This document shows positions 35,082 through 64,000 of a stretch of 64,000 bases of DNA, piece by piece. The stretch is from the NCBI RefSeq assembly GCF_900108065.1, contig NZ_FNVQ01000001.1, positions 620,001 through 684,000 of the forward strand, given 5' to 3'. The stretch is from Marinobacterium lutimaris. Lineage in GTDB: Bacteria > Pseudomonadota > Gammaproteobacteria > Pseudomonadales > Balneatricaceae. The notes beneath the pieces are model-generated. The model ran no database searches. It worked only from the letters and a program-made list of their open reading frames with translations, and was not told the DNA's origin. Made by a program: the position numbers and the translations under genes. Numbering within the stretch: the stretch's first letter is position 1; every line of letters begins with the position of its first letter.

Positions 35082-35219
35082 CGGCCGACCGTTGCTGTCA
35101 GCGCTGTCACCAAATTGGAGCTGCGCCGCCGGTAATGGTATTTTTGCTTTCCCCATGCGCCCGCAAGCCTGATAGCTGGCGCAGTGAATACGAAAGATCG
35201 AGCCGAGAAGGAAAGCTGG

Positions 35220-36074
35220 ATGAACATGGCGGTAACCGCCCAGGGGTGGGAAGCACTGCTGAAGCTGCGCTTCGCCCTGCGAGGAGAGAAAACCAAGATC
35301 GTCGAGCGTGAGCGTAAGGGTCCGCTGGCGGTACAACGCCCGTTCTACCCGGAAGGTGATACCGTCTGTCACACCTATCTGCTGCATCCGCCGGGCGGTG
35401 TGGTCGGCAGTGATACCCTGGATATCGCGGTGCATGTGGAACCCGGCGCCAAGGCGTTGATCACCACTCCGGGCGCCACCAAGTTTTACCGCTCTGGCGG
35501 TCGTCTGGCGACGCAGATTCAGCGCCTCAGCGTAGAAAAGGGCGGTTTACTGGAGTGGATGCCGCAGGAGAACATCTTTTTCCCCGATGCTCAGGCACGG
35601 GTCGAAACCCATATCGACCTGCAACCGGGTGCCTCGTTTATCGGCTGGGATATCCAATGTCTTGGAAGACCGGTCATCAATGAGGCTTTCACCGAGGGGC
35701 GCCTCGATGCGACTACCCGCCTCAGCGTCGATGGCGAGCTGGTGCTGATCGATCAGGTCAGAACCGAGGGGATGGCGCTGGTTGAAGCCAGTGCCGGTAT
35801 GCGCGGTTACCCGATGCAGGCGACGATGCTGATCGTGCCGGGCCAGGATAACCCCGACTTTGAACGTCTGCTGGAGCTCACTCGCGAGGCGATGGAGGGT
35901 TTGTCCGATCTGCCGCTGGAAGCGGGTGCGACGCGGGTGGATCAAGCTATCGTTGTGCGCTTGCTGGGCCCGGGTACCGAACCGATGCTGAAGCTGATGA
36001 CGGCCGTCTGGCGCGCAGTCCGGCCGGAGGTCGCTGGCCGCCAGGCGGAACCGCCACGAATCTGGGCAACCTGA
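35220..36074 (+). CDS. ureD: Urease accessory protein UreD
   Basis: A 284-residue UreD/UreH-type scaffold that binds apo-urease and, with UreF and UreG, delivers nickel. ATG 35220 follows AAGGA by seven bases. Recognisable segments are GPLAVQRPFYPEGDTVCHTY, HPPGGVVGSDTL, TTPGATKFYRS and ENIFFPDAQ. It is unusual in being about 12.6 kb from ureA, with unrelated genes between, and is closed by its own terminator at 36146-36181. Confidence 0.94.
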   Translation: MNMAVTAQGWEALLKLRFALRGEKTKIVERERKGPLAVQRPFYPEGDTVCHTYLLHPPGGVVGSDTLDIAVHVEPGAKALITTPGATKFYRSGGRLATQIQRLSVEKGGLLEWMPQENIFFPDAQARVETHIDLQPGASFIGWDIQCLGRPVINEAFTEGRLDATTRLSVDGELVLIDQVRTEGMALVEASAGMRGYPMQATMLIVPGQDNPDFERLLELTREAMEGLSDLPLEAGATRVDQAIVVRLLGPGTEPMLKLMTAVWRAVRPEVAGRQAEPPRIWAT

Positions 36075-41144: not shown

Positions 41145-41360
41145 CTATTTAACTGAGCCGTAGAAGCGAGGAAAATCGGTATAGCTTCTGGATTTCGGCT
41201 TGTTGTTGCTTCTGTTAGCAGCGCGTTCTGGTGCCAGACTCTTTTTCTTAACCGACATCAGCTCCAGATCATCGATGCATACCTGCAAAGTCTGCTGAAA
41301 GTGATTGAATAGTGCGTGCTGCTGATCGCCAGTCTGGGATACTCCGCGTTGCTGTTTCAT
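41145..41360 (-). CDS. Small hypothetical protein, 71 residues
   Basis: An open frame from ATG 41360 with AGGAC about 9 bases upstream. The N-terminal half is polar and glutamine-rich (MKQQRGVSQTGDQQHALFNH); the C-terminal half is basic and ends in SYTDFPRFYGSVK. There are no membrane segments or known domain. It is kept as a gene because of the ribosome site, full coding length and lack of an overlapping gene, but it may be spurious. Confidence 0.45.
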   Translation of the reverse strand: MKQQRGVSQTGDQQHALFNHFQQTLQVCIDDLELMSVKKKSLAPERAANRSNNKPKSRSYTDFPRFYGSVK

Positions 41361-41391
41361 GGCTGGGTGTCCTGCTTAAATAATGATCAAT

Positions 41392-41448
41392 CGGCGTATT
41401 TTAGGCGTGATTCTCCAGGCTCTAAGGAGTGAGGACGCCGCTTTTTTT
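41392..41448 (+). terminator. Orphan terminator-like hairpin on the plus strand
   Basis: CGGCGT (41392-41397) can pair with ACGCCG (41435-41440), with inner CTCC-GGAG pairing, and is followed by seven T bases (41442-41448). No plus-strand gene ends nearby, because the OmpA-like gene is already terminated at 41035. Confidence 0.4.
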
Positions 41449-41627
41449 AGGTAAAGCGACATCTGCGCTGGTAATAAAAGTGGCAGTCATAAAGCGGTTG
41501 GGAGCAGACCAGTATCCAGCGAAAGGTTGCTGCTCAGTGGGAAAGGTAGAGTCGTAGCCTTAAATCTAAGTACATACCTTCAGGCTGACGAATCGTTTCG
41601 GCTGGTAAATAAACGCCCGGACGGAGA

Positions 41628-44600
41628 TCAACGCGGCATTACCCGCACGCGCCCGAGTTGCTCAAGCGGTGCCGGTTTGCTGAGCAGGTAACCCTGCACA
41701 AAGTCCACACCGATCTCACGCAGCAGGCCGAGAGTTGCTTCGTCTTCGACAAACTCCGCCACGGTTTTCAGCTCCATGATGTGGGCGATGTTATTGATCG
41801 AGGCGATCATCGCCTGGTCGATTTCGTTATTGCTCATATCGCGCACGAAAATGCCGTCGATCTTGAGGTAATCCACCGGTAGACGCTTAAGGTAACCGAA
41901 TGACGACAGGCCGCTGCCGAAGTCATCGAGGGCAAAGTGGCAGCCCAGGTTACGTAGCTCCTCGATAAACGCGCGGGCCGCCTCTGGATCGGACATGGCG
42001 GCGGTTTCGGTGATCTCGAAACAGAGCAGGTGGGGGGGGATCTCATGCTTGCTGATGTGCTGCTTGATCGTCTGCAGGCATTCGGCGGAGCCGATGGAGG
42101 CGCCCGACAGGTTGATGGCACACTGAATCTGACTGTTGCCGGCGTGCAGATGATCGCCCAGCCAGGCGAGGGTATTGCGTACCACCCATTGGTCCACCTG
42201 TGGCATCAGGTCGTAGCGCTCCGCGGCGGGTACAAAGGCACCGGGTGGAATCAGGTTGCCCTCGGCATCGAGCATGCGGATGAAAATTTCGATATGGGGC
42301 ACGGCACCCGGTTCCGGATCCAGTGCCTCGATAGTCTGGTAATAGAGGCGGAAGTCATCGCAGTCGATCGCCTGCTGGATATGGGAGGCCCACTGCATCT
42401 GACCCTGGCGCCGAGTGAGTTCATTGTCGTCCGCCTCGTAAAGGTGGACGCGGTTGCGGCCAGTATCCTTGGCGGCGTAACAGGCGGCATCGGCAAGGCT
42501 GAGCAGTTCGTCCAGCGAGGCGCAGTCGGGGCCGAACGGCACCAGGCCGATGCTTACGCCCACGGAAAACACCTGGCCCTCCCAGGGAAAGCGAAAATCT
42601 TTGACGGTACGGCGCAGTTGCTCGGCTATCTCCAGCCCACGCTCAACCGGGCAGTCGGCGAGCAGGATGCCGAACTCATCGCCACCGAGGCGGGCGAAGG
42701 TGTCGTTCTGGCGCAGCAGGGGCTTGAGCTCCTGGGATAGCTGGCGCAGCAGCGCATCGCCGGCGCGATGGCCGCAGGTATCGTTGACCAGCTTGAACTG
42801 GTCCAGATCCAGGTAGCAGATCAGGTGTTCGCCATAGTCGGTGCGGGCGGAGATGATCAATTGCTCCAGGCGGCGTTCAAACTCGCGGCGGTTGATCAAG
42901 CCGGTGAGTGCATCGTGCACGGCCTGGAAGGTCAGCCGCTGCTGCAGCTCACTGTTCTGGGTGATGTCCTGCATGGCGATCACCCAGCCCACGCTCTGGC
43001 CATCCTTGTCGTGCAGCGGTGCGCAGTTAAGCTGCACCCTGGCGCGATGACCATTGGCGCCGATAAGACTCAGCTGGCGATATTCTCCGGCCGGAGTGCT
43101 GTCGCGGCAGAGCGCGGCGATGGAGATGTTGTCGCCCTCCATATTCTGCAGGCGCACGACAAAATCGATAGGCTCGTTGAACACTTCATCGATATGGCAG
43201 CCGGTGAGCGATCTTGCGACCGGGTTCAGATAGACGGTTTTCATCCGCGCATCGCAGGTGATGACCGCTTCGGTGATCGCTTCCAGCGTAACCTGGGCCA
43301 GCTGCGAGTGGCGGTGCAGACGCTCCTCCATCCGCTTGCGCTCGCCGATATCGCGGACGATGGCACTGTACTGGACCCCTTCGCCGGTGGGGCTGGCAGA
43401 GGTAGTGACCTCGATGGTGATCGGCTCGCCCTTGGCGTTACGCCCGATCAGTTCGTGGGGGCCCTCGTTCTGGCTTGATGCAATCAGCGGCAGCAGTTTC
43501 TCCAACGGCGTGGTTGGATAGAGCTTGAGGCAGTCCTTGTGCAGCAGTTTGGATATCTGCTGACCCGCCAGTTGAGTGTGCTGGCGACCGAAAATATTCG
43601 CCGCGCCGGGGTTGGCGCTGGTGATGATCCCTTGTTCGCTGAAGGTGATCACGCCATCCTGCATATCGCGGAGGATCAGGCGGGTACGGCTGCTCATGCG
43701 GTTGAGCTTGGCCATTACCTGGTTGTATTTGGCGGCGATCTGGCCAACCTCTGTAAAGGGTTCCACCGGCATCCTGCGCTCCATATCGCCGGTACGTTCC
43801 TGCTCGTTCATAGCGCCGAGCAGGTCGGAAAGTTCGGTGGAGGCGCCGTGTTCAGAGCTGTTAAGACCCTCGGTTTCCGCATCGTCAGAGACGCGTAGCG
43901 GCGAGATCTTGCGCAGTAACAGAAGAAAAATCAGTGATGTCGGGAAGGCCCAGGCGCCGCAGATCAGTATGCCTTCGATCTGGACCAGAACCTGGCCGGA
44001 CCAGTCGAGCCCGGTGCCGAGACGTTCAGGATCGCCCAGCAGGCCCACCGCCAGCGTGCCCCAGATACCCGCGGCCAGGTGCACAGGTGTCGCCGAGATT
44101 GCGTCGTCGAGCTTGAGTCTCTCAAGCAGACGTTCCATGCCGCGCATGCAAAGTGCACCTGTGATACCGATCAGCGCGGCTTCCAGAGTTGTCACGGCGT
44201 GGCAGCCGGCGGTGATCGCCACCAGCCCGGCCAGGGTGCCGTTCATGGTCAGTTGCGGGGTCTGATTGCTGGTTTGCCAGTATCCGAGCAGCATCCCGGT
44301 GATGCCACCAAAGGTGGCGGCAATCAGAGTGTTGGCGATAATGCCGGGAATAGCGCTGGAAAATTCCAGGGTACTGCCGCCATTAAAGCCGATCCAGCCG
44401 ATGATAAAACACATCATGCCCAGCATGGCGAAGGGCAGGTTGCTGCCGGGAATGGAGACCACCCGACCGTTGACGAAGCGGCCCTTGCGTGGCCCGACGA
44501 CAATCAGCGCCGCCAATGCCACCCAGCCGCCGAGGCTATGCACCACGGTGCTGCCGGCGAAGTCGACAAAGCCCTGCTCGGCCAGCCAGCCGGCGGGTCC

Positions 44601-45047
44601 TCGCAGGGCGCCGCCCCAGGCGAGATGGCCAAATAACGGGTAGATCAGTACGGCGATCAACGCAGTGATCAGCACGTAGGTGACAAACCGGGCGCGCTCG
44701 GCGATAGCACCGGAGACAATGGTAGCGGCTGTGGCGCAGAAGGTGAGCTGAAACAGAAAGAAGCAGGCATCCCAGAAGCTGAGTTGCGGGAAGTTAGCGG
44801 CGATCAGGTGAATGTCAGGCAGTATGCCGTTCCAGGTGCTGAACATCAGGCTGAAGCCCACGAGCCAGAACAGGGCGGTAGTGACGAGCAGGTCAAAGGC
44901 GTTTTTAAGCGCCACGTTGATGGCGTTTTTGCTGCGGGTCAGGCCGGATTCGAGACAGAGAAACCCGGCCTGCATGACAAGGACAAGGACGGCTGACAGC
45001 AGCAGCCAAAGCGCGTTGAAGGCTTCCTGATTCGACACTGATAGCAC
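41628..45047 (-). CDS. Ammonium transporter-PAS-PAS-GGDEF-EAL fusion protein
   Basis: A 1139-residue sensor fusion in the inner membrane. Residues about 1-390 are an Amt channel: FNALWLLLSAVLVLVMQAGF, ATAATIVSGAIAERARF, both pore histidines (STVVHSLGGWVALA and ISATPVHLAAGIWG) and GWIGFNGGS. A linker with FTEVGQIAAKYNQVMAKL (about 430-450) follows, then two PAS domains (about 455-700), a GGDEF domain with intact RLGGDEFGIL, and an EAL domain. In the EAL motif the sequence is EIF, but the glutamate, DDFGSG, LKIDG and other catalytic positions remain. Ammonium binding or transport probably sets c-di-GMP output. A sigma-54 promoter lies upstream. Confidence 0.95.
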   Translation of the reverse strand: MLSVSNQEAFNALWLLLSAVLVLVMQAGFLCLESGLTRSKNAINVALKNAFDLLVTTALFWLVGFSLMFSTWNGILPDIHLIAANFPQLSFWDACFFLFQLTFCATAATIVSGAIAERARFVTYVLITALIAVLIYPLFGHLAWGGALRGPAGWLAEQGFVDFAGSTVVHSLGGWVALAALIVVGPRKGRFVNGRVVSIPGSNLPFAMLGMMCFIIGWIGFNGGSTLEFSSAIPGIIANTLIAATFGGITGMLLGYWQTSNQTPQLTMNGTLAGLVAITAGCHAVTTLEAALIGITGALCMRGMERLLERLKLDDAISATPVHLAAGIWGTLAVGLLGDPERLGTGLDWSGQVLVQIEGILICGAWAFPTSLIFLLLLRKISPLRVSDDAETEGLNSSEHGASTELSDLLGAMNEQERTGDMERRMPVEPFTEVGQIAAKYNQVMAKLNRMSSRTRLILRDMQDGVITFSEQGIITSANPGAANIFGRQHTQLAGQQISKLLHKDCLKLYPTTPLEKLLPLIASSQNEGPHELIGRNAKGEPITIEVTTSASPTGEGVQYSAIVRDIGERKRMEERLHRHSQLAQVTLEAITEAVITCDARMKTVYLNPVARSLTGCHIDEVFNEPIDFVVRLQNMEGDNISIAALCRDSTPAGEYRQLSLIGANGHRARVQLNCAPLHDKDGQSVGWVIAMQDITQNSELQQRLTFQAVHDALTGLINRREFERRLEQLIISARTDYGEHLICYLDLDQFKLVNDTCGHRAGDALLRQLSQELKPLLRQNDTFARLGGDEFGILLADCPVERGLEIAEQLRRTVKDFRFPWEGQVFSVGVSIGLVPFGPDCASLDELLSLADAACYAAKDTGRNRVHLYEADDNELTRRQGQMQWASHIQQAIDCDDFRLYYQTIEALDPEPGAVPHIEIFIRMLDAEGNLIPPGAFVPAAERYDLMPQVDQWVVRNTLAWLGDHLHAGNSQIQCAINLSGASIGSAECLQTIKQHISKHEIPPHLLCFEITETAAMSDPEAARAFIEELRNLGCHFALDDFGSGLSSFGYLKRLPVDYLKIDGIFVRDMSNNEIDQAMIASINNIAHIMELKTVAEFVEDEATLGLLREIGVDFVQGYLLSKPAPLEQLGRVRVMPR

Positions 45048-45110
45048 TCCTGATTGCCGACAGTGAAAGATCCACGCGTTGAGCGTGTCTGTTTCTATCC
45101 TGTCAGAGAG

Positions 45111-45126
45111 AGCAATAAACGCGCCA
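45111..45126 (-). promoter_or_regulatory. Sigma-54 promoter of the Amt-GGDEF-EAL gene
   Basis: On the minus strand TGGCGCGTTTATTGCT differs from the sigma-54 consensus TGGCACG-N4-TTGCW at one conserved position. The invariant GG (45125-45124) and GC (45113-45112) are ten bases apart. The start site is expected near 45100, about 53 bases before the ATG at 45047. This implies control by an enhancer-binding protein such as NtrC. Confidence 0.8.
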
Positions 45127-45185
45127 TTTCCTGGCGGGTCAGTCAGTTGGAGCGGCTGGCGCTGGTCGATTGTTCAGGTGCCTGC

Positions 45186-45240
45186 GCGACACAAGCTGAT
45201 GTTTATTGCGAACTCACCCAATAAAACATAGTTGTGTCGC
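45186..45240. repeat. 9-bp inverted repeat upstream of the sigma-54 promoter
   Basis: GCGACACAA (45186-45194) and TTGTGTCGC (45232-45240) are perfect inverted copies, 37 bases apart. They lie roughly 60-115 bases upstream of the sigma-54 promoter, in the usual place for enhancer-binding-protein sites. They do not match the NtrC consensus. Confidence 0.5.
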
Positions 45241-45286
45241 CAAATCGAGTCGTAACCTATTATCCTTTCCGCTTAGGCTGGCGCTG

Positions 45287-46240
45287 TTAAACCTCCTTGG
45301 GCGGATGCTCGCTGATCCAGTGGCGGGCAATATCCACGCGGCGGGTGATCCAGACATCGCTATGGCGCTGAATATGATCAAGCAGACGCTGCAGAGCGAG
45401 GAAGCGGCCGGGACGACCGATCAGGCGGCAGTGCAGGCCGATCGACATCATGCGCGGTGTTTCCGCGCTTTCGGCGTAGAGTACATCGAAGGAGTCACGC
45501 AGGTAATTGAAGAAATCCTCGCCGTCGGCGAAGCCCTGGGATGAGGAGAAGCGCATGTCGTTACAGTCCAGGGTGTAGGGCACCACCAGATGGTTCTTCA
45601 CTTCGCCGGTACGCAGGCTGACCGGGGTCCAGAACGGCAGGTCGTCGCCGTAGTAGTCAGAGTCGTAGAGCAGGCCGCCATGTTCTACCGCCAGCTGACG
45701 GGTGTTGGGGGAGTCGCGTCCGGTGTACCAGCCCAGCGGTGTGCTGCCGGTCAGGTCGGTGATGATGCGCATCGCTTCCTTCATGTGCTCGCGCTCGCGC
45801 TCGATCGGCATCTGCTGATAGTGGATCCACTTCAGGCCGTGGCAGGCGATCTCATGGTCCAGGTCGACAAACGCCTGGGTCACCTCGGGGTTGCGGGCCA
45901 GAGCGGTGGCGATGCCAAAGATGGTCATCGGCAGGCCGCGGCGCTCAAACTCGCGCAGGATACGCCAGACGCCAACGCGGGAGCCGTATTCATAGATCGA
46001 CTCCATGCTCAGGTGACGATCCGGATAGGCCTGGGGGCCGGCCATTTCTGAAAGAAAAGTTTCAGAGTGGCTGTCGCCATGCAGGACACAGTTCTCGCCG
46101 CCCTCCTCATAGTTGAGGACAAACTGGACCGCGAGACGTGCACCGCCGGGCCAGTTGGCCTTGGGCGGATTCTTGCCATAGCCGCGCAAGTCTCTTGGAT
46201 AGGTGTTCGGATCGGCGCTTGGATTGGTTGTCTCGTTCAT
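45287..46240 (-). CDS. puuE: PuuE-type allantoinase (polysaccharide deacetylase fold)
   Basis: A 317-residue enzyme that opens the allantoin ring to allantoate. The start at ATG 46240 follows AAGGAG by six bases. PuuE features include YPRDLRGYGKNPPKANWPGG, VQFVLNYEEGGENCVLHGD, the YEYGSRVGVWRILREFERRG block and EIACHGLKWIHYQQM. Unlike metal-dependent deacetylases, PuuE allantoinases lack the usual zinc motif. It is divergent from the RpiR regulator and next to allantoicase. Confidence 0.93.
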   Translation of the reverse strand: MNETTNPSADPNTYPRDLRGYGKNPPKANWPGGARLAVQFVLNYEEGGENCVLHGDSHSETFLSEMAGPQAYPDRHLSMESIYEYGSRVGVWRILREFERRGLPMTIFGIATALARNPEVTQAFVDLDHEIACHGLKWIHYQQMPIEREREHMKEAMRIITDLTGSTPLGWYTGRDSPNTRQLAVEHGGLLYDSDYYGDDLPFWTPVSLRTGEVKNHLVVPYTLDCNDMRFSSSQGFADGEDFFNYLRDSFDVLYAESAETPRMMSIGLHCRLIGRPGRFLALQRLLDHIQRHSDVWITRRVDIARHWISEHPPKEV

Positions 46241-46382
46241 CAAGGGCTCCTTGCAGTCCATGACAGGGCAGCGGTTTGTCTTTGCCTGGACGCTGCCGGT
46301 GTTTGCGGGTTTTTTCTTCCGGACAGGCCGGGTTAGTATATTTGACTCTTACAAGCTACGTCGCCACAGGAATCAGATCGTC

Positions 46383-47328: not shown

Positions 47329-47345
47329 TTGGAACTAATGTTGCA
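47329..47345 (+). promoter_or_regulatory. Sigma-54 promoter of allantoicase
   Basis: TTGGAACTAATGTTGCA has the invariant GG (47331-47332) and GC (47343-47344) separated by ten bases, with the TTGCA -12 element intact and two mismatches in the -24 flank. The start site is expected near 47356, about 110 bases before the GTG at 47466. Confidence 0.72.
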
Positions 47346-47465: not shown

Positions 47466-48500
47466 GTGGAATACATAGAAGGTCAGCCGGTTGAAACCCT
47501 GCCGGCATTTGCCGAAGGTGCGATGAACCTGGCCGATATAGGCCTGGGTACCGAGGTGGTTGCGGTCAGCGATCAGTTTTTTGCGCCGGCAGAGCGGATG
47601 ATCAGTGCTGATCTGCCCCGTTTCTACCCGGACCGTTATGACGACCACGGTAAGTGGATGGACGGTTGGGAAAGCCGCCGCAAGCGCGGTGTTGGCCACG
47701 ACTGGTGCGTGCTGCGTCTTGGCGTTGCGGGCTACATCCATGGTTTTGATATCGATACCAGCTTCTTCACCGGCAACTATCCGCCAGGGGCCAGCATTGA
47801 GGCCTGCTATCTACCGGAGAGTGACCCGGACGATTCTACCGAGTGGACAATGCTGGCGGGACCGGTGACCCTGGGCCCGAGTCAGCACCATCTGGTCGCA
47901 GCGCAGATCCCCGCTGACAAGCAGGATTCAGCCTGGACCCACGTGCGCCTGAACATCCTGCCGGACGGCGGTGTGGCGCGTCTGGTGGTGTATGGCAGCC
48001 CGTCCGCGGAACTGAAAGAGGGCGACGAGCTGAACCTGGCTGCCCGCGAGCTGGGTGCCCGCGTGGTGTCCTGGAACGACTCTCACTACGGTCACCCGAA
48101 CAAGATTCTGATGCCGACCAAGGGCATCAACATGGGGGACGGCTGGGAAACCCGCCGCCGTCGTGAGCCGGGTAACGACTGGTGCCTGATCGAGCTGGCG
48201 GCTCCGGGTTATATCGATGAGATCGTTATCGATACTGCCTTCTTTAAGGGTAACTTCCCCGATAAATGTTCCCTGCAGGCTGCCTGCATGGGCAAGGTGG
48301 GCGATGAGGCTCTGGTGACCCAGAGCATGTTCTGGCAGGAGCTGCTTTCACCCCAGCCGCTGAGCGCCGATGCCGAGCATAAGTTCGTGCCGGATGCAGG
48401 CCTGCAGGGGCCTGTGACTCACCTGCGTCTGAACATTTTCCCGGATGGTGGTATCAGTCGCGTGCGCGTACACGGACGGGTTGCAGCTGAGAACAGCTGA
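47466..48500 (+). CDS. alc: Allantoicase
   Basis: A 344-residue enzyme that hydrolyses allantoate to ureidoglycolate and urea. The start is GTG 47466 with AGGAG seven bases upstream. The two homologous halves of the family are visible: GKWMDGWESRRKRGVGHDW with FDIDTSFFTGNYPP, and MGDGWETRRRREPGNDW with IVIDTAFFKGNFPD. The urea product links this gene to the urease genes downstream. A strong terminator follows. Confidence 0.95.
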   Translation: MEYIEGQPVETLPAFAEGAMNLADIGLGTEVVAVSDQFFAPAERMISADLPRFYPDRYDDHGKWMDGWESRRKRGVGHDWCVLRLGVAGYIHGFDIDTSFFTGNYPPGASIEACYLPESDPDDSTEWTMLAGPVTLGPSQHHLVAAQIPADKQDSAWTHVRLNILPDGGVARLVVYGSPSAELKEGDELNLAARELGARVVSWNDSHYGHPNKILMPTKGINMGDGWETRRRREPGNDWCLIELAAPGYIDEIVIDTAFFKGNFPDKCSLQAACMGKVGDEALVTQSMFWQELLSPQPLSADAEHKFVPDAGLQGPVTHLRLNIFPDGGISRVRVHGRVAAENS

Positions 48501-48584
48501 ATTTCGTCAAAAACGGTGCTATCACATTGATTTGGAATGTATATTGCTTCCAAAAACAGAGCATTGCAGAGTGACTGGCATCGC

Positions 48585-48723: not shown

Positions 48724-49026
48724 ATGGAGCTGACCCCAAGGGAAAAAGACAAGCTGTTGCTGTTTACGGCGGCACTGTTGGCGGAACGGCGCAAAGAACG
48801 TGGCCTCAAGCTTAACTATCCGGAAGCGGTGGCCTATATCAGTGCCGCGATCCTCGAAGGCGCGCGTGACGGACGCACAGTGGCGGAACTGATGGACTTC
48901 GGTCGCACCCTGCTTGGTGCCGACGACGTGATGGACGGTGTCGCCGAGATGGTGCACGAAGTCCAGGTCGAAGCGACTTTCCCCGATGGCACCAAGCTGG
49001 TGACCGTACACGAACCGATCGTCTGA
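48724..49026 (+). CDS. ureA: Urease subunit gamma
   Basis: A 100-residue structural subunit of the cytoplasmic nickel urease. The family N-terminus [20 protein letters not shown] and [15 protein letters not shown] are clear. Separate ureA and ureB genes show the three-subunit bacterial form. AGAGGA lies upstream of the ATG. Confidence 0.97.
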
Positions 49027-49036
49027 GGAGCAGAGC

Positions 49037-49342
49037 ATGAAACCCGGTGAAATCATTGCCGAACCCGGCGATATCGAACTGAACGTCGGTCGTGAGACCG
49101 TTGAGGTGGAAGTGGCCAACACCGGTGACCGTCCGGTTCAGGTGGGCTCTCACTACCACTTTTATGAGGTCAACGACGCGTTGCAGTTTGATCGCGAGAA
49201 AGCACGTGGTTTTCGTCTCAATATCGCCGCGGGTACTGCGGTGCGTTTCGAGCCCGGTCAGAGCCGTACGGTCGAGCTGGTGGCGTATGCCGGCTCCCGC
49301 GAGGTTTACGGTTTTCAGGGACGGGTAATGGGTTCGCTCTGA
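49037..49342 (+). CDS. ureB: Urease subunit beta
   Basis: A 101-residue subunit with the typical [19 protein letters not shown] start and [20 protein letters not shown] core. It lies ten bases after ureA with AGGAG before the ATG. Confidence 0.97.
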
Positions 49343-49367
49343 GCCCGCGCGAAGGAGGAGTTTGAAA

Positions 49368-51071
49368 ATGGCAAAGATTTCTAGACGCGCCTACGCGGAG
49401 ATGTTCGGCCCGACCACCGGTGACCGTGTACGTCTGGCGGACACCGAGCTGCTGCTCGAAGTGGAACGCGATTACACGACCTACGGTGAAGAGGTTAAGT
49501 TCGGCGGCGGCAAGGTGATCCGTGATGGTATGGGACAGGGCCAGCGCCCGAGTAGCCGTACCATGGACCTGGTGATCACCAATGCACTGATCGTCGACTA
49601 CTGGGGCATTGTTAAGGCCGACGTCGGTATCAAGAGTGGCCGTATCGCCGCCATCGGCAAGGCCGGTAATCCGGATATCCAGCCGGATGTCGATATCGCC
49701 ATTGGTCCGGGTACCGAAGTGATCGCGGGCGAAGGTCAGATCCTCACCGCCGGCGGCATCGATTCCCATATCCACTTTATCTGCCCGCAGCAGATCGACG
49801 AAGCGCTCTGCTCGGGTGTTACCACCATGATCGGTGGCGGTACCGGACCGGCGACCGGCACCAACGCCACCACCTGTACACCGGGCCCGTGGAACATCCA
49901 CCGCATGCTGGAAGCGGCGGATTCGCTGCCGATGAACCTGGGCTTCCTCGGCAAGGGCAACGCCAGCCAGCCGGAAGGTCTGCGTGAGCAGATCGAAGCC
50001 GGCGCCATCGGCCTGAAACTGCACGAAGACTGGGGCACCACGCCGGCCGCCATCGACTGCTGTCTGAGCGTGGCCGACGAGATGGATGTGCAGGTGGCGA
50101 TCCACACCGACACCCTGAACGAGGCGGGCTTCGTGGAAGCCACCCTGAAGGCGATCGACGGTCGCGTGATTCACACCTACCACACCGAAGGTGCCGGTGG
50201 TGGCCACGCGCCGGATATCATCAAGGCGGCGGGCGAAGCCAACATTCTGCCGTCGTCTACCAACCCGACTCGTCCCTACACGGTGAATACCATCGATGAG
50301 CATCTCGATATGCTGATGGTCTGCCACCACCTGGATCCCTCCATCGCCGAGGATGTGGCCTTCGCCGAATCCCGTATTCGCCGCGAAACCATCGCCGCCG
50401 AGGATATCCTGCATGACCTGGGCGCGTTCTCGATGATCTCTTCCGACTCCCAGGCCATGGGCCGGGTCGGTGAGGTGATCACCCGTACCTGGCAGACCGC
50501 GCACAAGATGAAGGTGCAGCGTGGTGCGCTCAGCGGTGATACCGAACGCAACGATAACAACCGTATCAAGCGCTATATCGCCAAGTACACCATCAACCCT
50601 GCGCTGACCCACGGTGTCGCCCACGAGGTAGGTTCCATCGAGGTGGGTAAGCTGGCGGACCTGGTGCTTTGGAAACCGGCCTTCTTTGGCACCAAACCGA
50701 GCATGGTGATCAAGGGCGGCATGATCGCGGTGGCGCCGATGGGCGATCCCAACGCGTCTATCCCGACTCCTCAGCCGGTGCATTACCGTCCGATGTTTGG
50801 CAGCTTTGGCCGCGCGGTGCAGAGCACCTCGATGCTGTTCCTGTCCCAGGCGGCGATGTCGGCCGGTATTCCAAGCCAGCTGGGTCTTGAGAGCCTGATT
50901 GGCGAGGTGCGGGACTGCCGTACGATCACCAAGGACAAGATGATCCTGAACAGCTATCAGCCGAAGATCGAGGTGGATTCCCAGACCTATGAAGTGCGTG
51001 CCGATGGCCAGCTTCTGGTGTGCGAGCCGGCCACCGAACTGCCGATGGCGCAGCGTTACTACCTCTTCTAA
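49368..51071 (+). CDS. ureC: Urease subunit alpha, catalytic
   Basis: The 567-residue catalytic subunit hydrolyses urea to ammonia and carbamate. ATG 49368 follows GGAGGAG by seven bases. Active-site elements are intact: [14 protein letters not shown] (nickel histidines), [12 protein letters not shown] (the carbamylated lysine), [43 protein letters not shown] (flap cysteine-histidine) and [15 protein letters not shown] (nickel aspartate). Confidence 0.98.
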
Positions 51072-51169
51072 ACCGGCTGGTGTAGCCAGGGGTGAGTCGA
51101 GGTGTTGAAGGGGCCAGGGACGGCGCTTCGTAAGATTAAAGAGTTCGAATAGATAGGTTTTATTACAGT

Positions 51170-51646
51170 ATGTTGCGACTAGTTTCTAAACTGGATGCCA
51201 AGCAAGAGCCGACCGCGCGCCTGTGTCTGCCGATCGATTCCAGAATCCGCAGCCGTCTGCGTGTGGAACTGGAAGACGGTCGTGAGGCGGGTCTGTTCCT
51301 GCAGCGTGGCCTGATCCTGCGCGGTGGTGATCTGCTGCAGAGCGAATGCGGTGAAGTGGTTGAGATCGTTGCCGCAGACGAGAGTGTCTCCACGGTGCGT
51401 TCCGGCGATCCGCTGCTGCTGGCCCGCTGCGCTTACCACCTGGGCAACCGCCATGTGCCGCTGCAGATCGAGCAGGGCATGGTGCGTTATCAGCACGACC
51501 ATGTGCTCGACGACATGGTGTGCGGACTCGGTGCCGAAGTGGTCGCCGAGCAGGCGCCGTTCGAGCCGGAAGCCGGTGCTTACGCCAGCGAAGGTCATGG
51601 CCATCACCATCATCACGACCATGAGCACGGATCCCACAGCCATTGA
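51170..51646 (+). CDS. ureE: Urease accessory protein UreE, nickel chaperone
   Basis: A 158-residue nickel metallochaperone. The C-terminal tail [17 protein letters not shown] is the nickel-storing histidine cluster. The central [20 protein letters not shown] segment carries the dimer-interface nickel histidine. It is 98 bases after ureC with only a weak ribosome site. Confidence 0.95.
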
Positions 51647-51674
51647 GCTGACCCTTTCGAAGAGAGGCAATTCT

Positions 51675-51917
51675 ATGCAGATGTTTAAGCGATCTCTGGC
51701 GGCTGTTTCGTTGCTGGCTCCGGGTATGGCTATCGCTCACGAAGGTGCGCATGGCGGCGGTCTGACCAGTGGCTTCGTTCACGTCATCAGCGAGCCGGAC
51801 CACCTGGCCATTGTCTGCCTGGGCGCCGCACTGATCGGCTGTGCCAGCTGGGCGGTACATGGCCTTGGCCGAAAGCGTGCGCTGTCTCGCCAGGCGTCCA
51901 GCCGCGCACGGGACTGA
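51675..51917 (+). CDS. Mini HupE/UreJ-like membrane protein
   Basis: An 80-residue protein between ureE and ureF, missed by size-limited calling because its frame is open into ureE. AGAGAGG precedes ATG 51675. A signal-like N-terminus (RSLAAVSLLAPGMAIA) is followed by HEGAHGGGLTSGFVH and one membrane segment (LAIVCLGAALIGCASWAV), then a basic tail. Full HupE/UreJ proteins have about 190 residues and six to eight membrane segments. This one keeps only the histidine-rich N-terminal module, suggesting a minimal nickel-binding role. Confidence 0.75.
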   Translation: MQMFKRSLAAVSLLAPGMAIAHEGAHGGGLTSGFVHVISEPDHLAIVCLGAALIGCASWAVHGLGRKRALSRQASSRARD

Positions 51918-51921
51918 TTCG

Positions 51922-52587
51922 ATGCTAGCGGATCTACGTCTCTATCAATTGATTAGTCCGGCGTTGCCGGTGGGTGCCTTTACCTACTCCCAGGGATTGG
52001 AGTGGGCCATCGAATGCGGTTGGGTGACCGATGCGGCCAGCCTCGAAGAGTGGCTGGTATCGGCGCTGGAGCATAGCGTCGCTACGCTGGAACTGCCGGT
52101 ATTGTTGCGGCTTTGCCGCGCCCTGGAAGAGGGTGACGAGCAGAGCTTCGGTCAGTGGTGCGACTATCTGCACGCCAGCCGCGAAACCTCGGAGCTGCGG
52201 GCAGAAGAGCGTCAGCGCGCCCAGGCGCTGCTGCGCCTGCTGCCGGAATTGGATGTTCCTGTGCCCGACTCGCTGCGCGACAAAATGGGCAAAACCCAGA
52301 TCGCCGGCATGGTGCTGGCGGCCAAAGCCTGGGATATCGACAGCATCAGCCTGGGGCGTGGCTATCTCTGGAGCTGGCTTGAAAACGCCGTAATGGCGGG
52401 CGTCAAGCTGGTACCCCTGGGCCAGACTGCGGGTCAGAAAATGCTGCTGGATGTATCGGCGCGCTTGCCGGCGCTGCTGGAGCAGGCCCCCAATATCGCC
52501 GATTGGCAAGTGGGCAGCTCTACACCGGCACTGGCGATCGCCAGCTCCAAGCACGAAACCCAGTATTCAAGACTTTTCCGGTCCTGA
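51922..52587 (+). CDS. ureF: Urease accessory protein UreF
   Basis: A 221-residue GTPase-regulating accessory protein. ATG 51922 begins four bases after the mini HupE stop and gives the family N-terminus (YQLISPALPVGAFTYSQGLE). RETSELRAEERQRAQAL and SISLGRGYLWSWLENAVMAG are conserved segments. It forms the UreD-F-G complex that activates urease. Confidence 0.96.
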   Translation: MLADLRLYQLISPALPVGAFTYSQGLEWAIECGWVTDAASLEEWLVSALEHSVATLELPVLLRLCRALEEGDEQSFGQWCDYLHASRETSELRAEERQRAQALLRLLPELDVPVPDSLRDKMGKTQIAGMVLAAKAWDIDSISLGRGYLWSWLENAVMAGVKLVPLGQTAGQKMLLDVSARLPALLEQAPNIADWQVGSSTPALAIASSKHETQYSRLFRS

Positions 52588-52634
52588 TGGCGGATCAATC
52601 TGATCCTCGTCTGGACCTCGCACTATAAGGAAAC

Positions 52635-53255
<621 letters not shown>

Positions 53256-53545: not shown

Positions 53546-55918
53546 ATGGCGAAAAAGTCCAGACTCCGCTCCAGGTTTCCGGTCCATCTGAAGCTTGCAC
53601 TGCTGCTGCTTGTCTGCTCACTGCTGGTGCTCGGTGGTGGCGGCTTCTATAAATCCGAGATTGCCCGCGAAACCTTCCGCTATCAGCTCGACGCCCGGTT
53701 TGACCGCCTCGATCAGTTTGCCAGTGCGTTGGCCGTCAACGTCGCCCAGGCGGATCGCGAACAGGTCGTTCACATCCTTAATCTTCTCCTGGCTGAACCC
53801 GACGTGCTGCGGGTCGAGTTGCTCGATGCCGAGGTGCATCCCGTTGTTAATCTGGAAACAGAGGATTACGGCAACATTCAGGTAGAGGGGCGGATCGTGG
53901 TTCCGGTGCCGGATATCTCCGGCAGCGAGAAAGAATCAGGCTGGCTGATCATGGAAGCCAGCGGCCAGAGCCTGGTGGATGCCAACAAATCGATTCTCGA
54001 TGATGCCATTGTTACCCTGGTGCTGATCGTTTCACTGTCCGCGCTGGCGATCCTCGTTTTCCAGGTTCGCTATATCAACCGGCCATTACGGCAACTGCTC
54101 TTCGCTATCGAGCGCTCCCGCAACAGCGGCGAGCTGGTGCGTGTTGGCGACCGCCTGCCCAACGATGAATTTGGTACGATCATCGGCGCCTACAATGAGC
54201 TCCTGATTGAAGTTGAAGACAAGCACCGCTCGTTAAAACGTAGCGAGGCGCGTTTCCGTCACCTCTACAACCGGACGCCGGCGCTGCTGTTCAGCCTGTC
54301 GGAGCGGGGCATTTTCGAGAATGTCAGCGAGCATCTACTCCATCACCTCGGCTACCCGGTCGATCAGGTTCTGGGCCGGCATATCGGTTCCCTGTTGATC
54401 GATCCGGATGATGTGCGCTCTCTGGATACCGCCTTTGAGCGTCTCGCTCACAGGCACCATGCCGAGTTTTATCTAAAACTGCGCAACGCCACCGGTGATG
54501 AACACGCCATGCGCGTCGACGCCACGCCAAACCCTGAAGGGCCGGGTGTTTTGGCGGTGATGACAGATATCACAAGCCTTAACGACGCGCTTAATACCAT
54601 CGAGCGCCAGGCGAACTTTGATAGCCTGACGGGGCTTCCCAACCGGCACCTGTTCAAGATGCTGCTCGGTGAGCAGCTTGAAAGCGCCGCTGCGGCAGAT
54701 GCCGACGGTCAGCAGGGGCTTTCACTGCTGTTTGTCGATCTGGATCGCTTCAAATATATCAACGACACCTATGGCCACCATACCGGCGATAAGCTGCTGA
54801 GGGCTGCGGGCTCGCGCATCCAGAATGTGCTGCCTGCGGGTGATTACGTGGCCCGACTTGGTGGCGATGAGTTCGCCGTGCTGATCCACGGCATTACCGA
54901 CGAAGACGCCCTGATGAGTCTCTCCTCCAGCCTGATTGATCAGCTGGAAACCTCTTTCCAGATCGATCAGTGCACCATGCATATTTCCGCCTCGGTGGGG
55001 ATTGCCGTCTACCAGGGCGAGGAAGCGACGCCGGATCAGTTGCTCAAAAGCGCTGATCTTGCGATGTATCGCGCCAAGGCGGAAGGCCGGGGGCGCGCCT
55101 GCGTGTTTGCACCGGAAGATGAGCAGCGCACTCTGCACCGGGTTAATACCGAATCCCTGTTGCGCGAGGCGCTGGAAGGGGAATATTTCGAACTCCACTA
55201 TCAACCGGTATGTGACCTGGGTACCCAGCGTATTGTCGGCGCCGAGGGTCTGGTGCGCATGAACCACCCGGAGAAAGGGCTGCTTGCACCCGGTGACTTT
55301 ATCGATGTGGCGGAAGAGACCGGGCTGATTGTGCCGCTGGGTGAATGGGTGCTGGAAGAGGGCGCGCGTCAGTTGGCCCAGTGGCACCGCGAACTGGGCT
55401 GCGATATTACCCTGTCGCTGAACGTATCGAGCAAACAGCTGCAGAGTTCGCGTTTTGCCGGACGTGTCGCCGAGATCTGCGAAAAATACTCGGTGCCGTC
55501 CGGGCATCTGGTGCTGGAGATTACCGAGTCGATGTTGATGAATAACAGTGACCAGGTGCTGGATGTGATGAACCGATTGAAGGCTCAGGGCTGCCTGCTG
55601 TCGATCGACGACTTCGGCACCGGCTTCTCCTCCCTCAGTTATCTGCAAAAATTTCCGCTGGATGTGCTCAAAATCGATCGCGCCTTCGTAATGGATATCG
55701 AAGCTAATGAAACGCATAGAGCGCTGGTCAGGGCGATCGTCAGTATGAGCGAGGCGTTGAAGCTGCGTGTGATTACCGAAGGTGTAGAGACCGAAGGGCA
55801 GATGCGCTGTATCCGTCAGCAGGGCTGTGAACTGGGTCAGGGATATTACTTCTCGCGGCCTTTGAAAGCGGCGGTGTTCAATGAATGGATCAGATCGAGC
55901 GAAACGTTGTCAGTATAA
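53546..55918 (+). CDS. Membrane sensor with PAS, GGDEF and EAL domains
   Basis: A 790-residue c-di-GMP enzyme. Two membrane segments (residues about 15-35 and 155-175) enclose a periplasmic sensor. A HAMP-like region, a PAS domain (about 240-350), a GGDEF domain (RLGGDEFAVL intact) and an EAL domain follow. The EAL motif reads EGL, but the glutamate, LEITES, IDDFGTGFSS, LKIDRAFV and ITEGVET positions remain. It could both make and degrade c-di-GMP. GAGGAGG lies unusually far (12 bases) from the ATG. Confidence 0.93.
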   Translation: MAKKSRLRSRFPVHLKLALLLLVCSLLVLGGGGFYKSEIARETFRYQLDARFDRLDQFASALAVNVAQADREQVVHILNLLLAEPDVLRVELLDAEVHPVVNLETEDYGNIQVEGRIVVPVPDISGSEKESGWLIMEASGQSLVDANKSILDDAIVTLVLIVSLSALAILVFQVRYINRPLRQLLFAIERSRNSGELVRVGDRLPNDEFGTIIGAYNELLIEVEDKHRSLKRSEARFRHLYNRTPALLFSLSERGIFENVSEHLLHHLGYPVDQVLGRHIGSLLIDPDDVRSLDTAFERLAHRHHAEFYLKLRNATGDEHAMRVDATPNPEGPGVLAVMTDITSLNDALNTIERQANFDSLTGLPNRHLFKMLLGEQLESAAAADADGQQGLSLLFVDLDRFKYINDTYGHHTGDKLLRAAGSRIQNVLPAGDYVARLGGDEFAVLIHGITDEDALMSLSSSLIDQLETSFQIDQCTMHISASVGIAVYQGEEATPDQLLKSADLAMYRAKAEGRGRACVFAPEDEQRTLHRVNTESLLREALEGEYFELHYQPVCDLGTQRIVGAEGLVRMNHPEKGLLAPGDFIDVAEETGLIVPLGEWVLEEGARQLAQWHRELGCDITLSLNVSSKQLQSSRFAGRVAEICEKYSVPSGHLVLEITESMLMNNSDQVLDVMNRLKAQGCLLSIDDFGTGFSSLSYLQKFPLDVLKIDRAFVMDIEANETHRALVRAIVSMSEALKLRVITEGVETEGQMRCIRQQGCELGQGYYFSRPLKAAVFNEWIRSSETLSV

Positions 55919-62347: not shown

Positions 62348-62986
62348 TTAGCTGGCCAGACCGCTATCAAGGGCGATGCGTGTTGCCTCTACACGGGATC
62401 TGATGTTCAGCTTCTTGTAGATCGACTTTACATGGTCGTTGGCCGTGTAGGTCGATATATCCAACTCCCGAGCGATCTGCTTGCGTGATGCGCCCCTGGC
62501 GATCAGTTTTAAAACCTCCCGCTCTCTCACCGTAAGCAGTTCGTTAAGCGCCCCATTGGGCCGGGGTGGTTCACTGAAGTGGGCGATAATACGGCTGGCC
62601 ATGGCCGGTGATAGCGGAGGCTGGCCGGACAGCATTCCTTTAAGGTGTTCGGCCAGCATCTGTGGCGGCTCTGACTTGAGCAGATAGCCGCTGGCACCGG
62701 CGCGCAATGAATTAAACAGGCTTTCGTCGTCATCGGCGACGGTGGCCACGACGCAGTGGGTGCTGGGTTGCTCCCTGGTGATTCGATTCAGGGTTTCGAT
62801 GCCGCAGCCGTCGGGCAGGTTAAGGTCAAGAATCGCCAGGTCAAAACGATGCCGGTCGAGTAGGGAGGCCGCTCCTTTGATGCTGGTGGCCAGGTGAATC
62901 TGAACGGGACCGAAGGCGAGCTTGATGGCGTGCTCAATCAGAACGGACCATTCCACATAATCCTCAAGTAGCAGGACGTTTTTCAT
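62348..62986 (-). CDS. NarL/FixJ-type response regulator
   Basis: A 212-residue regulator. ATG 62986 follows CAGGAAACAACC and overlaps the kinase gene by 23 bases. The receiver domain (residues about 1-120) has the acidic pair in LLLEDYVEW, the phospho-acceptor aspartate in LAILDLNLPDG and the lysine in YLLKSEPP. The LuxR-type helix-turn-helix (about 145-205) reads LTVREREVLKLIARGASRKQ followed by IARELDISTYTANDHVKSIY. Its partner is the overlapping Amt-kinase. Confidence 0.93.
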   Translation of the reverse strand: MKNVLLLEDYVEWSVLIEHAIKLAFGPVQIHLATSIKGAASLLDRHRFDLAILDLNLPDGCGIETLNRITREQPSTHCVVATVADDDESLFNSLRAGASGYLLKSEPPQMLAEHLKGMLSGQPPLSPAMASRIIAHFSEPPRPNGALNELLTVREREVLKLIARGASRKQIARELDISTYTANDHVKSIYKKLNIRSRVEATRIALDSGLAS

Positions 62987-64000
62987 GGTTGTTTCCTGGG
63001 TCAAATTGTCGTGAGGTAGGTGCAGGCTTGAAGGCGAGGGTAAAGCAGGTGCCTTCGCCTGGAGTGGAGCGAACGCTGATTGTCGCTCCAGCACTGCTGA
63101 GCAACTTCTTTGCGCTGAACAGGCCTATGCCATAGCCGCTACTACCGGATTTGGCATGCAGGCGCTGGTGGTTGTTGAACAGATGCTCGCACTGCTCCGC
63201 CGCGATACCTATGCCATGATCTTCCACTTCAACAAGGTCCTGTCCGTTAGCGGAGAATGAACGCAGGGTGATCGACGGAGGCTGGCCCGCCGGTGTGTAT
63301 TTGATAGCGTTGCTGATCAGGTTGACCAGCACCTGGTGCAGGGCGAATTCATTGAAATAGACCGTTTTAACCTGGCAGTCGCTGCTGATCTGGGCGCGGC
63401 TTTCTTCAATCAGTGGCGTCAGATGGATGCGCACGTTGTACAGCACCTCTTCGAGTTCAACCGGCTGCAGTGTTTCCAGCTCATGGGAAGCGCGGGAGAA
63501 GTTGAGCAGTTCGCGAATGATCTTCAGCGCGTCATCTGAGGAGCGGCGAATCCTCTCGACATACTCGCGATGGTTACTCTGGGCTTCGGGATCCTCCTGC
63601 AGCATCGCCGCGTAGGAGCTGATCACCGTGAGAGGGTTGCGCAGGTCGTGGGCGACCAGCTGGTCGTAGTTACGCAGGCTCTCGTTAGCGATCTCCAGCT
63701 GGGAGTTGCTGGTTTTCAGCTTTTCCTCCTTCAAGCGTACCGTATTGAGCACATGGTTATAGGCCATACCGACGATGCCAAGCTCGGTAAATTGGTCCGT
63801 AGGCGCCGGGCGATTGAGGTTACCGGTATCGGACTGGTACTGCATAAAAGCGATCAGTTCATATAGCTCAGACGAGGCACGGTGCTCGCTGATATTAAGA
63901 CCGACACTCTCATCCTGAGGCGAGACGCGAAACGGGTGGTAGGTGTTGATCAGGCGGAAGATCAGGTAAGCAGAACCAAACGCCCAGACAGCGGTGACCA
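62964..64000 (-). CDS. Amt-histidine-kinase fusion, N-terminus beyond window edge
   Basis: The kinase part has an H box LVAHDLRNPLTVISSYAAML, N box VNLISNAIKYTPAGQPP, G boxes VEDHGIGIAAEQ and GYGIGLFSAKKLL. The frame does not begin at the ATG at 63845. It continues to the window end, where it reads AYLIFRLINTYHPFRVSPQ and then GLNISEHRASSELYELI, which is the C-terminal tail of an ammonium transporter. The linker FTELGIVGMAYNHVLNTV corresponds to that of the Amt-GGDEF-EAL protein at 41.6-45.0 kb. It is therefore an ammonium-sensing kinase paired with the overlapping response regulator. At least 345 residues are visible. Confidence 0.9.
   Translation of the reverse strand, partial: VTAVWAFGSAYLIFRLINTYHPFRVSPQDESVGLNISEHRASSELYELIAFMQYQSDTGNLNRPAPTDQFTELGIVGMAYNHVLNTVRLKEEKLKTSNSQLEIANESLRNYDQLVAHDLRNPLTVISSYAAMLQEDPEAQSNHREYVERIRRSSDDALKIIRELLNFSRASHELETLQPVELEEVLYNVRIHLTPLIEESRAQISSDCQVKTVYFNEFALHQVLVNLISNAIKYTPAGQPPSITLRSFSANGQDLVEVEDHGIGIAAEQCEHLFNNHQRLHAKSGSSGYGIGLFSAKKLLSSAGATISVRSTPGEGTCFTLAFKPAPTSRQFDPGNNHEKRPAT

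Follow-up and report, generated by a model that had tools for sequence, protein, structure and literature searches.

A single gene joins an ammonium transporter domain to c-di-GMP enzymes

The window examined here is a stretch of 64,000 nucleotides (nt) from the gammaproteobacterium Marinobacterium lutimaris (RefSeq assembly GCF_900108065.1, contig NZ_FNVQ01000001.1, positions 620,001 to 684,000), numbered from its first nucleotide. On its minus strand, an uninterrupted open reading frame (ORF) without internal stops (41628..45047) encodes a protein in which an Amt-type ammonium transporter domain is followed by a linker, two PAS domains, and the GGDEF and EAL domains of enzymes that act on cyclic diguanylate (c-di-GMP). 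Comparisons with related sequences suggest that this fusion protein is likely to be a membrane receptor for ammonium, probably produced under sigma54-dependent nitrogen control, that switches an RbdA-like GGDEF-EAL output by way of a HAMP-like and PAS relay.

The frame yields 1139 amino acids (aa) from a mechanically assigned start, GTG 45047, and domain boundaries are given in this numbering (P0001), from which 3 is subtracted to count from GTG 45038. The latter codon, also in frame (1136 aa), is more likely to be the true start, because it is preceded by AGGAG at 45051-45047 and because the orthologues in genomes G001 and G002 start exactly at the aligned residue. Pfam places Ammonium_transp at residues 13-403 (E 1.5e-108), PAS domains at 455-567 and 588-698, GGDEF at 709-866 (E 9.5e-41) and EAL at 890-1125 (E 9.9e-64). 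A preliminary description of this DNA had proposed a single polypeptide with the order Amt-PAS-PAS-GGDEF-EAL, and the intact ORF with all five domains placed by Pfam confirms it. A chance ORF or frameshift artefact is ruled out by the intact frame and by full-length conservation in 10 of 57 searched genomes, comprising all eight from Marinobacterium (the window's own counted) and two of another genus; the closest full-length relative, in G003, is 95% identical.

Conservation was assessed in 36 proteins of the same architecture, chosen by a tail length of 676-692 aa among the best 80 of at least 454 loci, with locus L119 left out of the 36-row alignment. The linker (0.74-0.76) and the two enzyme domains (0.75 and 0.71) score higher than the PAS domains (0.58 and 0.53).

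The Amt domain resembles those of ammonium sensors

Ks-Amt5 of Candidatus Kuenenia stuttgartiensis (PDB 6EU6) is described (PMC5764959) as a trimer that binds two ammonium ions via Q24, E31, N47, D50, T51, T109 and T112, and whose pore is obstructed by F27, Y30 and F34. The protein keeps the known pore residues yet translocates ammonium inefficiently, and binding was proposed to be the signal. The Amt domain under study comes from a neighbouring lineage (40% identity), and in an alignment its residues at the seven ligand positions read Q, E, N, D, L, T and S, such that five are identical. The equivalents of the His pair, the Phe gate and the W/S filter are all present, whereas the three pore-blocking positions read F, L and L. 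Ks-Amt5 also differs in having a histidine kinase output and, according to the same paper, in being built without HAMP and PAS domains, in place of which the fusion has a HAMP-like relay.

The five shared ligands and the known pore residues are invariant in 36/36 same-architecture proteins, which upholds the earlier statement that the Amt domain, matched by Pfam, is complete with both pore histidines. When all fusions were compared with plain Amts (103 versus 42 rows), the residues were found in 103 versus 1 (Q), 103 versus 29 (E), 102 versus 23 (N), 102 versus 7 (D) and 102 versus 1 (T); after 90% de-replication, the full set occurs in 85 of 87 fusions but in only 1 of 32 plain Amts. In these counts the fusion rows were picked by their linker, not by ligand residues, and the window's own protein is present among them twice; four of 107 fusion frames (L071, L110, L117 and L119) had been dropped because their Amt is cut. 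The window's genome and its relatives were the sole source of the 42 plain Amts. Assimilatory Amt/AmtB proteins share the fold and pore residues but carry no signalling output, and Af-Amt1 and most of the compared plain Amts are without the sensor-site Q, D and T.

In phylogenetic trees, the fusions, Ks-Amt5 and a single plain Amt (L212) fall together and separately from the remaining plain Amts, with Shimodaira-Hasegawa-like approximate likelihood ratio support of 80-89. These trees held Ks-Amt5 without Sd-Amt1 and contain several long branches, and the more careful one covers 44 of 104 fusion rows; in it, fusion L073 pairs with Ks-Amt5. L212 joins at the base of the sensor lineage. There is moderate support for placing the Amt domain of the fusion in a sensor lineage separate from the compared plain Amts.

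A second reference is Sd-Amt1 of Shewanella denitrificans, known to us from the titles of PDB entries 8QJ3 (OFF-state), 8QJ4 (ON-state) and 8QPF, released 2024-06-12. It combines an Amt domain (44-46% identity), the same linker and a GGDEF domain in one chain, has the same five ligands, and matches the Ks-type site of the fusion except for F in place of L at the T51 position. Sequence alignment shows it to be shorter (about 644 aa), with the PAS and EAL domains unmatched and hence no phosphodiesterase half. The OFF- and ON-state titles make receptor action of such proteins plausible.

The preliminary description held that ammonium flux could set c-di-GMP directly, which would make the Amt domain a conducting transceptor in which transport, and not static binding, drives the c-di-GMP module. 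This arrangement would accommodate the 36/36 invariance of the pore residues, a score above the NCBIfam ammonium-transporter cut-off (368 versus 343 bits), and the replacement of two of the three pore-blocking side chains of Ks-Amt5. However, the inefficient translocation reported for Ks-Amt5 with the same pore residues (PMC5764959) means that intact histidines are no proof of a working channel, and the emphasis on flux was overstated. In addition, the genome encodes three plain Amts for uptake, and the sensor Amts form a separate lineage. We regard control by flux as unlikely, and by analogy with Ks-Amt5 the signal is probably ammonium binding.

A conserved HAMP-like linker is shared among many Amt fusions

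The linker that connects the Amt domain to the first PAS domain has the consensus GLNxSEHGASTELxDLLxAMNxQ...GD...VPVEPFTEVGQIAxxYNxV, and 16 of its 79 columns are invariant across 13 fusions. It consists of the Amt C-terminal region followed by a HAMP-like helix-loop-helix. When a linker profile (106 rows) was aligned by hhalign with the 30 HAMP domains that Pfam finds in the window's genome, a match of 97.2% probability (E 4.4e-11, 48 columns) resulted, versus 1.4% and 0.2% for control stretches located beside the same HAMP domains. The linker is common to Amt fusions with other outputs, including histidine kinases, methyl-accepting chemotaxis proteins (MCPs), SpoIIE phosphatases and CheA-like proteins.

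These observations bear on the idea that the Amt domain is mainly a membrane anchor, and that the PAS domains sense redox state, nitric oxide or a metabolite and thereby set c-di-GMP. Two PAS domains are indeed present, and altered nitric oxide responses are reported (PMC7148300) for mutants of RbdA and similar PAS-GGDEF-EAL proteins. In contrast, the ligand and pore residues of the Amt domain are invariant whereas conservation within the protein is lowest in the PAS domains, and in some relatives (L036, L142, L254, L257 and L144) the Amt-linker unit is attached to outputs without a Pfam PAS match. An anchoring role is accordingly improbable, more so than control by flux.

The c-di-GMP output is predicted to be bifunctional

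The GGDEF active-site motif and the RxxD I-site are invariant in 36/36 proteins, as are the EAL residues E917, N976, E1008, D1038, D1039, K1059, E1095 and Q1115 (numbered from GTG 45038), which correspond to the catalytic set (E, N, E, D, D, K, E, Q). In place of the EAL triplet the sequence is EIF, whose Glu is invariant. An apparently active c-di-GMP module, as first proposed, is consistent with these intact sites. Residues 570-1129 of P0001 match RbdA (PA0861) of Pseudomonas aeruginosa with 509 bits and 44-45% identity over about 550 columns; the likeness is to the PAS-GGDEF-EAL half, and the comparison covers the crystallised PAS-GGDEF-EAL region only.

According to PMC7825114, which cites others, an RbdA construct with its PAS domain acts as a cyclase and as a phosphodiesterase enhanced by guanosine triphosphate, whereas GGDEF-EAL alone is only a phosphodiesterase. 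We infer that the output of the fusion is bifunctional and RbdA-like. The net direction of its activity is not readable from sequence, since c-di-GMP rises on loss of rbdA but falls on loss of the similarly built PA2072 (PMC7148300). Moreover, with 59 GGDEF matches in the window's genome, any effect of the fusion must be local or conditional.

Signalling in the reverse direction, with the Amt pore gated by the nucleotide state of GGDEF-EAL in the way that GlnK acts on AmtB, can be largely set aside: the joint does lie at the Amt C-terminal region, which is involved in allosteric control of Amt transport (PMC5764959), but the catalytic residues are all kept, and because kinase, chemoreceptor and phosphatase outputs are also found on the Amt-linker unit, a receptor is a better fit than a regulated channel.

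A conserved sigma54-type promoter-like element precedes the gene

The sequence TGGCGCGTTTATTGCT, which begins 88 nt before GTG 45038, has one mismatch to TGGCACNNNNNTTGCW, the consensus of sigma54 -24/-12 promoters. The case for a promoter rests on conservation, because the pattern count alone gives no enrichment in the window (29 found versus 38 expected). When GG and GC are mandatory and no more than 2 mismatches are tolerated, an element lies upstream of 33 of the 36 same-architecture genes, compared with 14 of 283 other ORFs in these loci and 1.9 of 36 leaders after resampling. All eight Marinobacterium genes and 25 of the 28 others have it (the misses are L125, L140 and L164), although genes from one genus are not independent in these counts. 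Among fusions of other architectures, from which a crude length rule removed 5 of 44 loci (L110, L117, L150, L152 and L155), the element precedes 5 of 8 Pseudomonadota genes, of which L098, L099 and L105 look like shortened same-architecture copies. No sigma70 promoter candidate was found on the minus strand within 41200-45400.

A palindrome resembling the NtrC consensus is present in 14 of 36 leaders when up to 2 mismatches are allowed, versus 0.8 among resampled ones. Taken together, the upstream sequences suggest that transcription of the fusion gene probably depends on sigma54 RNA polymerase and is controlled by nitrogen, and we infer that NtrC is the activator involved.

Distribution of the Amt-linker family

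The two-PAS GGDEF-EAL tail occurs in 36 of the best 80 of at least 454 loci, a selection that yields no frequency. Nine named genera are represented among the 36 (Marinobacterium, Nitrincola, Haliea, Methylophaga, Azoarcus, Marinospirillum, Pseudomonas, Pseudomaricurvus and Thioalkalivibrio), seven are gammaproteobacterial records without a genus, and many are metagenome bins. The architecture had been called rarely described. It is not rare in nature by this account. Among the papers listed by our literature search, with most subscription journals outside its reach, there was none on an Amt-PAS-PAS-GGDEF-EAL protein or on Sd-Amt1.

A less biased figure comes from 398 Pseudomonadota genomes, of which 20 contain linker matches at E < 1e-7 (22 proteins). 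Relaxing the threshold to E 0.001 raises this to 45 genomes, but the 29 weaker rows match only the HAMP half (21) or only the Amt C-terminal part (8). By motif and spacing, with a Pfam check on 10 proteins, the 22 outputs comprise 16 GGDEF-EAL pairs, three histidine kinases, two MCPs and one frame that ends before GGDEF; the 16 divide by spacing into four with two PAS domains (the window's included), six with one and six with three. Beyond this set, the linker is joined, according to Pfam, with a HisKA_2 kinase in Brocadiaceae, with SpoIIE and MCP domains in planctomycete records, with a CheA-like Hpt-HATPase output in a spirochaete bin, and with HisKA and receiver domains in a cyanobacterium, each in one protein.

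Several individual records deserve mention. Amt domains are fused to MCP signalling domains at L254 1188-3431, L257 898-3201 and L144 6882-8951, and these could be ammonium chemoreceptors. The Amt-linker unit is joined to a SpoIIE phosphatase at L142 6801-9020 and to a CheA-like Hpt-HATPase at L122 6753-9629. Amt-linker-PAS frames that end before GGDEF (L098, L099, L105 and L255) may be broken genes or sequencing errors. In genome G000, a distant Amt (455 aa, L005; G000:C18:577130-579223) adjoins an opposite-strand ORF with a GGDEF domain.

The fusion described here belongs to the known Ks-Amt5/Sd-Amt1 kind of Amt receptors as a further variant, in a family that is widespread and little studied. 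Its interest lies more in its membership of this Amt-HAMP-like receptor family than in being a curiosity on its own.

Genomic neighbourhood of the fusion gene

The features of the locus are collected in Table 1. The preliminary description placed the gene among others that liberate ammonium from polyamines, allantoin and urea. The urea (ureD and ureABCEFG) and allantoin (allantoinase and allantoicase) genes are present, whereas polyamine genes are unsupported: the cut-off for gamma-glutamylputrescine synthetase is 650 bits, but the two glutamine-synthetase-like genes reach only 250 and 193, which leaves this substrate unestablished. A sigma54-type element also lies ahead of ureA (48533-48548, 2 mismatches), and together with the one at the allantoicase gene (47330-47345) suggests one nitrogen regulon.

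Table 1. Features of the fusion gene and its surroundings in the window (P0001 residues count from GTG 45047).
Feature	Coordinates	Strand	Remarks
Amt-HAMP-like-PAS-PAS-GGDEF-EAL fusion gene	41628..45038	-	1136 aa from GTG 45038; ORF, Pfam, orthologue starts
AGGAG, likely ribosome-binding site for GTG 45038	45047..45051	-	Sequence
Sigma54-type -24/-12 element TGGCGCGTTTATTGCT	45111..45126	-	1 mismatch to TGGCACNNNNNTTGCW
Amt domain, P0001 13-403	43839..45011	-	Ligand residues Q26, E33, N49, D52, T109 (= Q23, E30, N46, D49, T106 from GTG 45038)
Conserved linker, P0001 377-455: Amt C-terminal region and HAMP-like stretch	43683..43919	-	Core about 43686-43832
PAS domain 1	43347..43685	-	Pfam
PAS domain 2	42954..43286	-	Pfam; aligns with PAS of RbdA/PA0861
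GGDEF domain	42450..42923	-	Active-site motif and RxxD I-site present
EAL domain	41673..42380	-	Catalytic residues present
ureD	35184..36074	+	Profile match
GT4 glycosyltransferase, 899 aa	36988..39687	-	N-terminal region weakly CehA/McbA metallohydrolase-like, 23 bits versus cut-off 80
puuE allantoinase	45287..46261	-	Upstream of fusion, same strand
Allantoicase	47466..48500	+	Sigma54-type element 47330-47345, 1 mismatch
ureA-ureB-ureC-ureE-ureF-ureG	48724..53255	+	ureF assigned from its position and by reading the sequence; no NCBIfam match at 1e-20
Second Amt fusion, Amt-HAMP-like-histidine kinase (HisKA-HATPase), 3' part	62964..64000	-	702 aa, continues past window edge

Within Marinobacterium, ureABC lies near the fusion in seven of eight genomes (the contig of the eighth stops short), ureD lies on the opposite side in six, and puuE adjoins the fusion in five. 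Tested urease and purine genes were not found near the 29 same-architecture loci outside Marinobacterium (tblastn, E 1e-20, half of the query covered; flanks of at most 8 kb, less where contigs were short), and on this basis the urease/purine neighbourhood looks like a genus feature; gene context was rejected as a general proof of function. Neighbour families recur in at most 7 of the 36 same-architecture loci, and weak TamA/TamB-like matches lie near the fusion in two Nitrincola loci. The sigma54-type element is better evidence of a link to nitrogen than the gene neighbourhood is.

In 6 of 8 Marinobacterium genomes the GT4 glycosyltransferase gene comes next downstream in the same orientation, with an opposite-strand OmpA-like gene in between in the window; it was not found in the G003 stretch examined. 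Its product is a possible local polysaccharide enzyme linked to c-di-GMP. Another PAS-GGDEF-EAL gene (53546-55918) directly follows ureG, and its homologues adjoin urease genes in several Marinobacterium loci.

The second Amt fusion is adjoined by a NarL-type response regulator, named by reading (window 62348-64000, also L036 2348-5072), and the two likely form an ammonium two-component system. The pair of fusions is linked in four of eight Marinobacterium genomes (G000, G002, G003 and G005); the contigs of G004 and G007 end, and the second fusion was not found in the stretches examined from G001 and G006. Past it lie genes read, without profile matches, as xanthine dehydrogenase, guanine deaminase and a BMP-type transporter, so that two Amt sensors with different outputs flank a purine/urea region here.

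A model for ammonium-dependent control of c-di-GMP

A receptor triggered by binding could operate as follows. Ammonium would occupy an intramembrane site of the Ks-Amt5 type in the Amt domain, and occupancy most likely shifts the Amt C-terminal region. This shift would act through the HAMP-like helix pair and then the two PAS domains, and the relay would set the dimer state of the GGDEF-EAL pair, tipping it between c-di-GMP synthesis and degradation. As for direction, low ammonium might favour the phosphodiesterase (leave) and ammonium the cyclase (stay), a guess that has about the same chance of being right as wrong.

Several observations weigh against this model. Two of the seven Ks-Amt5 ligands are changed (T51 to L and T112 to S), and L at the Y30 and F34 positions is also found in 23 and 27 of the 42 plain Amts, respectively, so the fusion may transport ammonium after all. 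The Q, E, N, D, T signature may be the inheritance of one clade and not functional retention; L212 1459-2784 is a plain Amt of 441 aa with all five residues and no output domain. Pfam did not list PF00672 (HAMP) for the fusion protein at a maximum E of 10, with search filters that remove most matches above about 0.1. The helices that AlphaFold places here, at 403-416 and 430-456, are of low confidence, the predicted local distance difference test score being 43-71 in blocks across residues 391-460; for these reasons we label the linker HAMP-like, not HAMP. The window's own leader contains no good NtrC palindrome (best, 4 mismatches). The sigma54-type element precedes only 1 of 31 other-architecture fusions from other or unassigned phyla (30 are without it) and is thus no property of the whole Amt receptor family. 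Finally, Amt proteins are trimers, whereas HAMP, PAS and GGDEF-EAL domains are usually dimers, which makes the geometry of coupling a puzzle.

More tentatively, and with somewhat less than even confidence, a single Amt receptor lineage with its HAMP-like adaptor might be a general ammonium-sensing cassette used in several phyla to drive kinases, chemoreceptors, phosphatases and c-di-GMP enzymes. In this protein bound ammonium would then flip one polypeptide between c-di-GMP synthesis and breakdown, and the clash between trimer and dimer would be solved by a higher assembly, for example paired trimers.

Implications

The sensing of external ammonium by Amt proteins, as opposed to internal signals such as PII, is poorly settled. 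The fusion allows this question to be tested by one deletion in a culturable marine genus, and it offers specific targets for mutation, namely Q23, D49 and T106 of the Amt part and the HAMP-like linker as the relay. A trimeric receptor that drives dimeric enzymes also poses a clear structural puzzle. If the proposed function is correct, nitrogen supply would be tied to the decision between attached and swimming life without a transcription step.

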